This document shows, one piece after another, positions 5,245 to 40,832 of a DNA stretch of 64,000 nucleotides; the first letter of the stretch is position 1; the number at the start of each line of letters is the position of its first letter. The notes under the pieces are model-generated. The model was not told the DNA's origin. It worked only from the letters and a program-made list of their open reading frames with translations, and did no database searches. Position numbers and translations under genes: made by a program. The stretch covers positions 11,130,347 through 11,194,346 of the forward strand of contig CATQJL010000316.1 of assembly GCA_958299035.1 (NCBI GenBank). The letters run 5' to 3'. This DNA is from Cylicocyclus nassatus. Lineage: Eukaryota > Nematoda > Chromadorea > Rhabditida > Strongylidae.

Positions 5245-6860
5245 ACGCTTGAGGCAGCTGCCTGATTATCTAATTCCCATTGACTTTTGGACTGAGGACA
5301 CTTCGACTATTACAACAGCGTTTTTTTTTGTGACTTTCAATGAACTTTGTAAATGTGTAATTGCTTTTGAACAAAACTCAGCAATTACAGGCCAATTGTA
5401 TGCAAAGACAATGTGCCACTGCGGACGCTGTCGAAGTCTTTCAGATCAGGCGTACTTTCATCCTTCCCATTCTGCTCTCTCTTTTTCGAGGCAACTGCCT
5501 GATTGTATCATGCTGAATTTATTAATTTCCATTGACTTTTGGATGAGGACACTTCGACTATTACAACAGCGTTTTTTTTGTGAACTTTCAACGAACTTTG
5601 TAAATGTGTAATTGCTTTTGAACAAAACTCAGCAATTACAGGCCAATTGTATGCAAAGACAATGTGCCACTGCGGACGCTGTCGAAGTCTTTCAGATCAG
5701 GCGTACTTTCATCCTTCCCATTCTGCTCTCTCTTTTTCGAGGCAACTGCCTGATTGTATCATGCTGAATTTATTAATTTCCATTGACTTTTGGATGAGGA
5801 CACTTCGACTATTGCAACAGTGTTTTTTTTTGTGAACTTTCAACGAACTTTGTAAATGTGTAATTGCTTTTGAACAAAACTCAGCAATTACAGGCCAATT
5901 GTATGCAAAGACAATGTGCCACTGCGGACGCTGTCGATGTCTTTCAGAACAAGCGTACTTTCATCCTTCCCATTCTGCTCTCTCTTTTTCGAGGCAACTG
6001 CCTGATTGTATCATGCTGAATTTATTAATTTCCATTGACTTTTGGATGAGGACACTTCGACTATTGCAACAGTGTTTTTTTTTTGTGAACTTTCAACGAA
6101 CTTTGTAAATGTGTAATTGCTTTTGAACAAAACTCAGCAATTACAGGTCAATTGTATGCAAAGACAATGTGCCACTGCGGACGCTGTCGAAGTCTTTCAG
6201 ATCAGGCGTACTTTCATCCTTCCCATTCTGCTCTCTCTTTTTCGAGGCAACTGCCTGATTGTATCATGCTGAATTTATTAATTTCCATTGACTTTTGGAT
6301 GAGGACACTTCGACTATTGCAACAGTGTTTTTTTTTGTGAACTTTCAACGAACTTTGTAAATGTGTAATTGCTTTTGAACAAAACTCAGCAATTACAGGC
6401 CAATTGTATGCAAAGACAATGTGCCACTGCGGACGCTGTCGAAGTCTTTCAGATCAGGCGTACTTTCATCCTTCCCATTCTGCTCTCTCTTTTTCGAGGC
6501 AACTGCCTGATTGTATCATGCTGAATTTATTAATTTCCATTGACTTTTGGATGAGGACACTTCGACTATTGCAACAGTGTTTTTTTTTGTGAACTTTCAA
6601 CGAACTTTGTAAATGTGTAATTGCTTTTGAACAAAACTCAGCAATTACAGGCCAATTGTATGCAAAGACAATGTGCCACTGCGGACGCTGTCGATGTCTT
6701 TCAGAACAAGCGTACTTTCACCCTTCCCATTCTGCTCTCTCTTTTTCGAGGCAACCGCCTGATTGTATCATGATGAATTTATTAATTTCCTTCGACTTTT
6801 GGATGAGGACACTTCTATTACAACAGTGTTTATTTGTGAACTTTCAATGAACTCTGTAAA
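5245..6860 (+). repeat. Tandem array of a 252-bp unit, six copies
   Basis: The marker ATGCAAAGACAATGTGCCAC recurs at about 5399, 5650, 5902, 6155, 6407 and 6659, a spacing of 251-253 bp. Units are nearly identical and come in two variants: units 1, 2, 4 and 5 read CGAAGTCTTTCAGATCAGG, units 3 and 6 read CGATGTCTTTCAGAACAAG, giving an AAB-AAB pattern. The paralogous locus at about 21735-22010 has a single diverged unit. The array lies in the intergenic region between the divergent genes A and B. Short ORFs repeated inside it (for example 5647-5835) are by-products of the repeat. Confidence 0.95.
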
Positions 6861-6936
6861 TCTGTAATTGCTCAAACCCAAACTCAAGTGGTGAAATCCT
6901 TGATTCGATTGACACGATTTCATTTTTTGAGCCAAA

Positions 6937-33354: not shown

Positions 33355-33975
33355 CGGTTGCATATTTATATGTAAACTATACAAATACTTACCAGTTTTG
33401 AACCTAGTTCTTAGCAAGGAAAATAGCGGATATTATTGTTTCGTGAGCTTTGGAGAGCTGAGAAGTTCCAGAATCTAGCTCAGAAGTTTGATCTACAAGC
33501 AGTGGCTTATAAACACCCAAGATTCCATGCCCAACCCTAAAAATCAACAAGAAAGAAGCAGCTTTACGCAGAAAACTAGATGCTACCGAACAAATGCCTT
33601 GGCATTGAGCGAAAGTCGTTTAGAGCAAACTATAAACTATTAGTATCGTGCAGAGATCATGGGAAACCATCTGTTGCACTTTGAATTGTGGGTCGGTCGC
33701 GTGTGCTTTCCTCTCGACGCATCATGCAGTTCACAACGTTCAAACATGTGATAATGCATGAAGTAGAAAGGATGCACACAAACAAAATAGCAGTATAAAA
33801 GTAATCAAAATGAGATGAGGAAATCATTTCATTCATATAAATAGTCAAGAATTCAAAACTACGTTTCTAGAAACAAAACTGATAAAATTAGGCCGTAGAA
33901 TAGCAAAATGGAGCGAATAGCAGCTTTACAGAAATGGGGCTGGATAAGGTGAGGATTACTACTGCGTTCACATCT
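33355..33975. other. Segment with no supported gene
   Basis: AT-rich sequence with one minus-strand frame of 63 codons (33657-33848) of no recognisable type. I see no repeats or splice structure here. Confidence 0.5.
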
Positions 33976-34100
33976 GAACGCTGTGACTTTCGAAAATAAC
34001 TCAGACACTCGCGGTTGAGTCGCGCAGGGCAAAACGAGGTGTCGTCAACGAATGCCTGGGCGACTCGCGAAATTGGTGTCGCGGCAAAATCAGGACACCT

Positions 34101-34260
34101 GTGGCCGTATTTATCAACGAAACCCGTGGGTTCCGGAACCCACTGGGTTAGTGCTTTTGATGAATATCGATTCTTCCCTGGAGTAGAATCGATATTCATC
34201 AAAAGCACTAACTCAGTGGGTTCCGGAACCCACGGGTTTCGTTGATGAATACGGCCACTG
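34101..34260. repeat. Near-perfect 160-bp hairpin
   Basis: TGGCCGTATTTATCAACGAA at the left pairs with TTCGTTGATGAATACGGCCA at the right. Arms of about 73 bp contain TGGGTTCCGGAACCCA, itself a palindrome, and leave a loop TTCCCTGGAGTA of about 12 nt. It sits within the left inverted repeat of the 2.4-kb unit. Confidence 0.85.
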
Positions 34261-34693
34261 GTTTTGTGTCGCGGCAAAAGTGCGCGACAAAATCGGGGCA
34301 AAATTGGGACACCTGCGCGAGACACCAAAATGTCCCGATCGCCTTCAGAGCACGCGGCCTACGCCCCTACTGACAGCTTTTTGCGCCCTCCAAGCCCTCT
34401 CTCACGCCTTCCTTTTGACTTACCCAACGTCCTTAATCAGTTTGGGTCCCACTTCTTATGCTTGTAACTTTTCTGCTAATAAACCACAGTCTTATGTCGC
34501 GAAATTTATTAACAAATACACAAGATCTTTTTGAGCAGGCTTTACATTAACATCGAAATGAGACACACAGACAGACAGCAAGTATGAAATTCGAAGCACC
34601 ACAATAACGAAACAAGGTTACGAAACAACTACAACAAAAAATGTAGACAAATCATCAGGCTTCCTCGATTCTTCGACTTCATCTTCTACGCAT

Positions 34694-35964
34694 TCAGTCT
34701 TCTGAATCACCAGGTCTTCCTGAGTGTACTCCTGCCTTCAGTGTCTTCGATGACGACACGCTTTTTCTGAAAAACAAGAATTATTGATACCAGGACCACA
34801 TAAAACAGATGAATCACCTTTGATGGAAGAAGAGCGGATCTTTCAGGGTCAAAATGATATGGTCTGGTATCAAATGATATGGTTCGAATGTCTGCCCTGC
34901 AAAATTATAGTTTAGAAGTGTATCGCTTCTTCCGTATGAGAAAACTCATGAGGCCCTCCCTATTGTTATCCTTGCGTGACCGCTCCATACAACTCTTTTC
35001 TCTGAGAGGACGTCGAATAATTTTTCATCATCTTCTGCTAAGTACAAGCACCGCCTAAATTCCAGTGCACATAAAGGTCTTCCGAGGACATACATACCTA
35101 TTTGAATTTCGCTTATGCTCATCTAGCGTCCGTAGAAGTTCTTCGCCGCAGAGGCCGACAGCGTCAAGGACGAAACCTAAATCAGTTATCAAAAGTAATG
35201 TACTTACTTAAGTAATGTACACATCGACCCACTTATTAGCAAATCGAACAATCCTTCTGGGAGGTCTTTAAGATGATCAAATTTTCCATCTTCCCGCTCT
35301 GTCTACAGGCTTAGTTTTGTATTTCCGTTGGAGGTTCGCAGGCCTAAACGGTGATTACGAGACAACCTTATTATCTTCATCTATTAGTCGCGTACATTTA
35401 GAAAGAAGTGCCGCAAAAAGTCGAGGACCAACAGGATGAAGGACAGATGAAACAGATAAGGGTAGACCCGTACAAACCAGCAAGTGAAAAAGAAAAGAAA
35501 AATAAAGACAGAAAGAGGTAATCTGCGGTGCTCAAAAAGCAACATACCCGCACCTTTCTTCTGTCTTTCTAAAGCTCCTGCTTGTCGGGCAAGGTAAGCT
35601 GGACCCGCCGATTTTCCGGAGAAGCCTAAATAAGCAGAATTAGTTCCAAAAAGATAAATAGAAAAATGTACCACTTTCGACTTTTCTTCGGCGATTCCGG
35701 TTTCTCAACGCACTTCTGTAGTTCGTTTTCGCAAATATACTGCAAATAAAGTTCATAAAAAAAGCTTTTACCAAAACCAATAACTCACCTCCAAAACTGT
35801 CCAGAAGCGGACTTGTTTCTAGACTTTGACAAACCACAATTATCCAGCTAATCTTCAAAATCTACGACTCTCAAAGTCGAGAGCAGTACGCCATTTACCA
35901 AAGGGTCATCAACAGACATTTGTTTGTACGCGCAGCTTTGAGGAATATTTGCGTCTGGAATCAT
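34694..35964 (-). CDS. Unrecognised gene made of short, nearly equal exons
   Basis: Minus strand, well-formed splice sites. The 3-prime exons join in frame: 35548-35625 (GFSGKSAGPAYLARQAGAL), 35221-35298 (REDGKFDHLKDLPEG, LFDLLISGSM), 35098-35176 (FVLDAVGLCGEELLRTLDEH), 34981-35054 (RCLYLAEDDEKLFDVLSEKR, VVWSG), 34818-34896 (QTFEPYHLIPDHIILTLKD), 34694-34766 (ending GRPGDSED and TGA). Exon lengths are 78, 78, 79, 74, 79 and 73, about 25 codons each; introns are 43-85 nt apart from one of about 250. Acceptors are TTTAG, TTTTTCAG or TTTTGCAG; the 34981 donor (GTCACG) is weak. Upstream exons are less certain: ATG at 35964 (MIPDANIPQSCAYKQMSVDD), a GTAAAT donor and an exon reading YICENELQKCVEKPESPKK at 35672-35739, whose phase does not join cleanly. 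No domain recognised. Confidence 0.5.
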
Positions 35965-36837
35965 GTATTTGTGGAAGCACAGTCACAATGTAACAGCTTG
36001 CAAAAGTGTAACTTGTAGATTATGAAAAGAGATGTTTCGCTAGAATATGCAAACATGGTCATTTGCTACGAAGCTAAAAAGTCAGCAACCAGCCAATATG
36101 ACAAGAGTCATCCCTGGACGGTACAAAACAACAATTCATAGAGCTTGCAAATCAAAAGAAAGAGAAAAAGCAACAAATGCTGGGAAGAATTGACCTATAG
36201 GTGCATTATTTCGAAATCTCCTTGCCCGTCGCGACAAAATCGCACCGAAGTCGGGACGAAATTAAAATGATGACTCGCGGTCCACCGGATTTTGGTGCGA
36301 ACGTCCATTTTGTTGGCGGATACCCTGCGCGACTCAACCGCGAGTGTCTGAGAAAGCGTTCCGCAGAAGACTCGTCCGCAATGACCGCAGCGCACGCGCC
36401 CGCGTCCTGCTTGCTGGGTTACTGTAGTGGACGGTGGGTTCAGAAGGGCCGTCTCCCGAGTGATCCCTTTGGTAAGAAGAACGTAATTTTCTCTGCAATG
36501 GAATATTTTTCACAGTTGTTATTTCTACATTACCACAGAAGTTTGTCGCTATAACATACGGATCATTGCTATGAACCTCCAGAAACTCGTTGAGGATACA
36601 TAACTATCGTCACTTGTGATACCATTTACAACCATACTTGATGCTCATAGTTCAAAAGCGCAATCTTTGGGATCTTGTTTATCTGGGGATAACCAACGAT
36701 AAGCTGAATGCTAATATTCTTAAAGCGTAAAACCCACTTTCTCTTGAACAGCAATGACTTTCGGTTTAGATTTCAGTAACTTATCGAATTTCTTTTAATT
36801 TACAATACCGCTCACATTTTTTGAAAAAAAGACGCGA

Positions 36838-36940
36838 ATGTATGGACATGTATGGACATGTACGGACATGTCCATACATGTATGGACATGTCCGTACATG
36901 TCCGTACATGTCCATACATGTATGGACATGTCCATACATC
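36838..36940. repeat. Palindromic decamer array, left arm
   Basis: The words TATGGACATG and its complement CATGTCCATA, with CGGACATG/CATGTCCG variants, repeat about ten times. The mirror array in the right arm (about 40738-40798) has fewer repeats. The array is open in the frame of the adjoining exon-like sequence. Confidence 0.85.
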
Positions 36941-40649: not shown

Positions 40650-40832
40650 AAGATTCTCCGCGCCGAGCTGAATCGAATGGTCGCTTTGGATTCAGAATTC
40701 GTCCACTCTGAAGCGAGATATGACCACGCGACGCTGATGTATGGACATGTCCATACATGTATGGACATGTCCGTACATGTCCATACATGTCCATACATTC
40801 GCGTCTTTTTTTCAAAAAATGTGAGCGGTATT
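40650..40832 (+). CDS. Candidate exon of gene D family, in the right arm of the foldback
   Basis: After CATAAG the frame reads AELNRMVALDSEFVHSEARY, then DHATLM, continues without a stop through the palindromic decamers (YGHVHTCMDM-type repeats), and reads IRVFFSKNVSGI up to a GTAAGTG donor at 40833. Relatives: 52964 onward (AELIKMVSMEELVHSKARY) and the worn copy at 31912. The mirror arm carries it on the minus strand at about 36830-37020. Function unknown. Confidence 0.4.

Follow-up and report, generated by a model that had tools for sequence, protein, structure and literature searches.

Cylicocyclus nassatus is a horse-parasitic worm. The window analysed here, a stretch of 64,000 nucleotides of its genome, contains a unit with matching inverted ends, inside which a reading made from the sequence alone (the sequence-only reading) had drawn a spliced gene of six near-equal exons. 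Is this gene real, and does it belong to the worm or to a transposon? We consider it likely that the unit derives from a cut-and-paste DNA transposon resident in the worm's own genome and is a non-autonomous copy that has lost internal sequence and decayed. In the fuller element a transposase-like gene would lie upstream and an accessory gene (gene A) downstream, both on one strand between terminal inverted repeats (TIRs) with ~11-bp subterminal repeats.

A transposon family with fixed ends and a 2-bp target duplication

The unit, previously put at about 2.4 kb, measures 2353 bp and is indeed bounded by matching ends, namely perfect inverted repeats of 30 nt (Table 1); 100 shuffles gave 0 matches. 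A search for other copies with the same ends had been advised, and in the genome (514.7 Mb, 369 contigs) it returned 92 forward and 90 reverse TIR matches with no more than two mismatches (control: 0 and 0). For the left end, at least 41 genome matches of 92-100% identity were obtained, with 40 of 185 candidates scored. Genuine TIR pairs are present in 13 of the 20 fetched copy loci and enclose elements of 476 to 6937 bp. A single end is visible at five loci (L012, L014, L015, L021 and L024), and the partner end of L014 may lie ~11 kb off. The second end of L019 is a true end, which aligns to window 36118-36344 and is altered in its outermost bases; L025 shows the same kind of alteration.

Target-site duplications (TSDs) were counted over the 14 elements with both ends, comprising the window unit and 13 fetched loci, with L019 excluded. 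The 2-bp flanks are identical in 12 of them (permutation mean 1.6; 12 was reached in 0 of 5000 permutations), the exceptions being L009 and L010, and identity over 3 bp or more occurs in 0 of 14. Outside this count, a further element of 3429 bp at C316:1637374-1640802 (L031, L040, L043) has TC at both sides. No empty target site for the window insertion was present among the fetched loci. With fixed-end TIRs in many copies and a TSD of fixed length, the unit is one copy of a cut-and-paste TIR DNA transposon family, on which a literature search found nothing.

Close to both ends of the unit, and of L010 and L011, lie the ~11-bp repeats (GACAAAATCGG), and these two loci also have the motif of the window's outermost left subterminal repeat. 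The nested MITE-like insertion is absent from most copies, the alignments of which to the window skip from 34101 to 34258. Farther inside, seven of the 20 copy loci (L013, L014, L020, L022, L025, L026 and L027) stop matching at 35436, while L017 matches the opposite side of this junction, starting at 35434. To judge from the alignments, the window unit is an internal-deletion derivative in which exons of a 5' gene (SAP-like) are fused to the 3' half of gene A.

The surroundings of the unit yielded several further observations. Its left flank resembles that of L009 (window 33532-33983 against L009:7717-8173, 82% over 472 columns), and so does its right flank (36396-36459 against L009:9202-9265, 95% over 64 columns); therefore, both copies lie in related repeats. 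Two short palindromic arrays with the unit ATGTATGGACATGTCCATAC lie at 36838-36939 and 40737-40798, and a tandem array of a 252-bp unit at 5266-6872 (6.4 copies, 97% matches). Scans of the window against Rfam (gathering threshold) and for tRNAs were empty, and viral-contig scans gave no matches.

Table 1. Features of the window unit (window positions) and related loci elsewhere in the genome
Feature	Position	Strand	Remarks
TSD, left copy	33998..33999	.	AA; counted over 14 two-ended elements
Left TIR	34000..34029	+	5'-CTCAGACACTCGCGGTTGAGTCGCGCAGGG
Subterminal repeat, left end	34080..34107	+	repeat family D3; last bases fall within the nested insertion
Nested short palindromic (MITE-like) insertion	34102..34257	.	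78-nt arms; CTG as 3-bp overlap at borders
Subterminal repeats, left end	34272..34310	+	~11-bp unit GACAAAATCGG
Gene A, last exon	34655..34766	-	KKRVVIEDTEGRST / QEDLVIQKTECVEDEVEE; two frameshifting deletions relative to L019
Gene A, exon	34818..34896	-	ADIRTISFDTRPYHFDPERSALLPSK; 21-nt in-frame insertion
Gene A, exon	34950..35054	-	...LAEDDEKLFDVLSEKRVVWSGHARITIGRAS; 9-nt in-frame loss; next donor AT, GT in L027
Gene A, exon	35098..35176	-	FVLDAVGLCGEELLRTLDEHKRNSN(R)
Gene A, exon	35233..35343	-	ACEPPTEIQN*ACRQSGK/GKFDHLKDLPEGLFDLLIS; in-frame TAA; 1-nt deletion
Gene A, exon fragment	35396..35436	-	LLVLDFLRHFFLN; truncated by the internal deletion junction
Internal deletion junction, 5' segment / gene A segment	35434..35436	.	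breakpoints of copy-locus alignments
5' gene, exon 3	35548..35625	-	GFSGKSAGPAYLARQAGALERQKKGA
5' gene, exon 2	35675..35739	-	YICENELQKCVEKPESPKKSRK
5' gene, exon 1, decayed SAP-like	35789..35919	-	in-frame TAG
Subterminal repeats, right end	36230..36268	+	repeat family D3
Right TIR	36323..36352	-	pairs with left TIR
TSD, right copy	36353..36354	.	AA; counted over 14 two-ended elements
Checked ~3.27-kb elements	C1:16749810-16753078, C1:87526750-87530022, C223:13031871-13035153, C223:22041912-22045191, C223:59967203-59970470		
Two-gene loci (transposase-like gene and gene A)	C305:28375099, C112:47463590, C112:236356, C305:34631752, C316:30370096, C223:46402403		

The transposase-like gene and the question of superfamily

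Protein P0014 carries the stretch KLHCFIDHCVLEDL..SASPFER ahead of a gene A part, and P0005 a related but shorter transposase-like stretch. A copy on C112 has the same transposase-like gene upstream of gene A and in the same orientation, with LCMDGVTF and RFRPDALYLISEGVT farther upstream. This copy is degenerate. The motifs of the catalytic layout D, D, H(3-4)H, E, with H(4)H in this element, were all chosen by eye and show changes from the published pattern. A search for the transposase gave 60 matches, of which those with at least 57% identity fall on nine distinct loci; according to the list of P0009 matches, gene A follows at six of the nine (Table 1), on the same strand and no more than 4 kb farther downstream. 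The search with P0009, an N-terminal protein, placed no gene A at the other three (C1:103148396, C305:3809936 and C112:80742440), and among the matches listed none lies beside the more distant transposase-like matches. Twelve distant matches are gathered within ~207 kb at C223:85943635-86150243, again with no gene A match in the P0009 search. No single copy combining both TIRs with intact versions of the transposase and gene A was found.

The 5' gene of the window unit is encoded by 35434-36352, which matches L017 at 88% and contains three exons. One L017 peptide reached 23.6 bits against the Pfam SAP domain (PF02037; cut-off 23.9) and two joined L017 frame pieces 27.4 bits; one L017 query matched SAP with a Pfam E of 4e-5, and the window's own peptide had no Pfam match to this domain. 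The SAP-like exons have 19 listed matches and at five loci, including the window, are found a few hundred bases inward of a TIR. They were never found joined to the transposase-like gene. Since none of the 19 listed matches falls on the six two-gene loci, their link to the transposase is guesswork based on position, under which they would form its N-terminus. A literature search on SAP domains added nothing.

In plants, CACTA elements follow a rule of 13-bp CACTA ends and 3-bp duplications. The termini of the C. nassatus element, CTCAG..CTGAG, are neither CAC..GTG nor CA..TG, and its subterminal repeats near both ends are a CACTA/CMC feature. Pfam transposase models, including Transposase_21, had no match in P0005, P0014 or the typed pieces, the queries comprising only fragments and a degenerate copy; because its transposase pieces were not recognised, the element was not filed in CACTA. 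Its best reading is that of a CACTA-like two-gene transposon, a candidate member of this superfamily, with a putative TNPA-like accessory protein.

Three known systems bear on this reading. As far as its description goes, SmTRC1 is likewise an animal TIR transposon with a 2-bp flanking repeat, present in 7 of 14 copies, and with several spliced products (PMC1636069). Its D-G and D-x-L/M-H-x3-L-G motifs are roughly, not exactly, recognisable in the C. nassatus element; however, SmTRC1 matches Transposase_21, which the C. nassatus pieces do not, its TIR sequences differ, and no counterpart of gene A was found in that description (PMC1636069). By its description, Spm/En of maize, with the proteins TNPA and TNPD, likewise couples a transposase to an accessory protein, has subterminal repeats close to either end and gives rise to internally deleted dependents (PMC2613891, PMC1636069). 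In the accounts given there, TNPA binds the subterminal repeats and transposition needs both proteins, which are spliced from one unit in Spm, unlike the two genes here (PMC2613891, PMC1636069). The element Tgmt* is given a 3-bp duplication (PMC2613891). Finally, the CMC/CMCT clade (EnSpm, Mirage, Chapaev, Transib), as outlined in PMC12730594, resembles the C. nassatus element in its duplications of 2 to 5 bp and, as far as motifs chosen by eye allow, in H(3-4)H ahead of the last E, but its ends are mostly 5'-CA..TG-3' instead of CT..AG, and the C. nassatus element has no firmly established C(2)C motif (PMC12730594).

It is rather unlikely, though the strongest of the alternatives, that the same transposon belongs to another superfamily with 2-bp duplications, for example an ISL2EU/Harbinger-related or a new one, with gene A perhaps as the main mobility protein. 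The non-CAC termini and the blindness of Pfam to the transposase pieces would agree with such an assignment, as would the 3429-bp element on C316, which gave no match to the transposase part of P0014, yet H(4)H plus E in P0014 (KLHCFIDHCVLEDL...SPFER) and the D-G motif (LCMDGVTF) resemble the CMC/TRC layout (PMC12730594, PMC1636069). The 2-bp duplication itself is described both for Harbinger-related elements (PMC12730594) and for animal CACTA-type elements (PMC1636069, PMC6004678).

Gene A and the decay of the window copy

Pieces of gene A occur in 16 of the 20 fetched copy loci (all except L009, L010, L012 and L024), with the last exon on the left-TIR side, and P0009, searched against the genome, had 114 matches, spread over six large contigs. 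The sequence-only reading had offered an unknown transposon gene as one of two possibilities, and this one is supported by these occurrences of gene A. In the C112 copy and three divergent subfamilies the protein consists of a coiled coil, a helical part (HDHFL..DFxRHFFLNAC..ACRQSGK..DLPESLVTFLIS) and a basic-acidic tail; divergent subfamilies have layout and intron positions in common. No Pfam family matches gene A or the joined 193-aa model of the window. Matches below the cut-off (XLF_CC, Cyclin_C, Herpes_UL6, DUF1722, CRIM and others) were taken as chance. The best E in a PDB sequence search was 0.85, and AlphaFold models were poor (mean pLDDT 51.5 and 49.3), the coiled-coil helices being modelled better than the remainder. 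Three protein searches, which rely on shared words, returned 2, 12 and 20 proteins, all from C. nassatus except P0007 (on a 1067-bp contig), and none from another named species; the largest search scored the best 7994 candidates.

Selection was assessed by dN/dS in 169 gene A pairs, after exons with less than 45% identity or with stops and pairs of fewer than 50 codons had been dropped; 44 of the 169 were saturated. At dS of 0.25 or more the median of the finite values is 0.27 (range 0.11-0.72, 106 pairs), at dS 0.1-0.25 it is 0.62 (0.45-1.05, six pairs), and at dS below 0.1 it is 1.08 (0.38-2.07), with 12 of 13 pairs measurable and 6 of the 12 at 1 or above. Some close copies remain below 1 (0.38, 0.39), and gap-free placement raises some of the values. 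These ratios suggest purifying selection among distant copies and none that is clear between close ones, a pattern which in turn suggests that gene A belongs to the transposon and was not captured from the host. It fits a gene that is selected while spreading and decays once inserted.

Capture of a host gene had been the other possibility raised for the window, with gene A as a worm gene that was acquired by the transposon and spread along with it. No parental gene was found, and the protein searches led back to C. nassatus and P0007 only. Several exons and the lack of resemblance to any Pfam family would suit a captured gene, but the repetition of the gene A family on six contigs, the purifying selection on its divergent subfamilies, its position behind a transposase-like gene at six loci and the failure of shared-word searches to return proteins of other named species make this origin improbable. 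A sister subfamily with a different exon pair, similar to P0012, speaks in its favour. Several TIR pairs are spaced ~3.27 kb, P0012-like exons lie inside all five such elements checked (Table 1), and residues 101-139 of P0012 are found at 40 places among the matches listed. Acidic P0012-like exons lie at L027:6337-6621 and L025:4604-4320. Exon capture and a further transposon gene are both possible for these sister elements. The same exons together with further P0012 exons, with no gene A among the matches listed, occur at C223:4661880-4664045, which is either the parental gene of the P0012-like exons or another copy.

As for the gene originally drawn, its six minus-strand stretches of 78, 78, 79, 74, 79 and 73 nt do exist (35625-35548, 35298-35221, 35176-35098, 35054-34981, 34896-34818 and 34766-34694), and their near-equal lengths are partly an artefact of the chosen borders. 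Of the proposed spliced globular protein, the GT..AG introns and an open frame of 193 aa stand, the latter made up of the six exons and three upstream pieces chosen by the analyst, but the joined product does not: comparison with P0001-P0012 rules it out as a real protein and reveals a chimeric exon set, with three wrong borders and a wrong frame in the last two exons. Exon 35625-35548 belongs to the 5' gene, not to gene A, the second exon runs in truth from 35343 to 35233, and exon 35054-34981 extends to 34950. In the last two exons the continuation of P0001 is IGRALADIRTYHFDLERSALHPSKKKRVVIEDSEG; this agrees with the window frame ADIRT..YHFDPERSALLPSK..KKRVVIEDTEG, not with FEPYHLIPDHIILTLKD. 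P0010, an unreviewed gene prediction, follows the drawn frame over part of the last exon (SSSKTLKAG).

Stops in orthologous copies had been named as evidence against the drawn gene; stops and frameshifts relative to the family were found, and they lie within the window copy itself. It has two in-frame stops (TAA 35313-35311 in the ACEPP exon, TAG 35850-35848 in the SAP-like exon), three frameshifts (deletions of 1 nt near 35284, 7 nt near 34726 and 1 nt near 34669) and one lost splice donor (AT instead of GT beyond 34950), besides in-frame changes (loss of 9 nt near 35026, gain of 21 nt at 34882-34862). Compared with its closest copy, L019, dN/dS is 0.95 with gaps handled (74 codons, 12 replacement and 4 silent changes) and 1.05 gap-free. 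Judged by its reading frames, the window copy is dead and decayed. It is hardly credible, despite the GT..AG introns and open frame, that the drawn model is a real, expressed host gene designed with near-equal exons, given homologues that match different frames and borders, the disruptions listed above and no sign of selection against L019.

How the element may move and what it means for the family

In a fuller copy of such a CACTA-like two-gene transposon, the parts could act as follows. The upstream gene would encode a CACTA/CMC-like transposase that cuts and joins, by analogy with Spm/En. The gene A protein would multimerise through its coiled coil and bind the subterminal repeats, so helping to bring the ends together in the way of TNPA in Spm/En. 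The window copy was presumably mobilised by proteins of fuller copies and decayed afterwards.

We tentatively suggest, as a possibility well short of probable, that gene A encodes an orphan coiled-coil protein of transposition, so far in one strongylid only, with the role in an animal that TNPA has in plants. It would cover the subterminal repeats, bring the two ends together and perhaps control silencing; the ~3.27-kb sister subfamily would, in addition, have acquired exons from another gene and multiplied them to dozens of copies.

A transposon family of C. nassatus with ~180 TIR sites, the predicted fragments of which stand in databases as unnamed proteins, now has boundaries, a target rule and a partial gene content. 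Gene A also directs attention to a family of accessory proteins that no Pfam model covers. Should gene A work in the manner of TNPA, an animal element would allow tests of CACTA-type transposition by two proteins, one of them dedicated to binding the ends.
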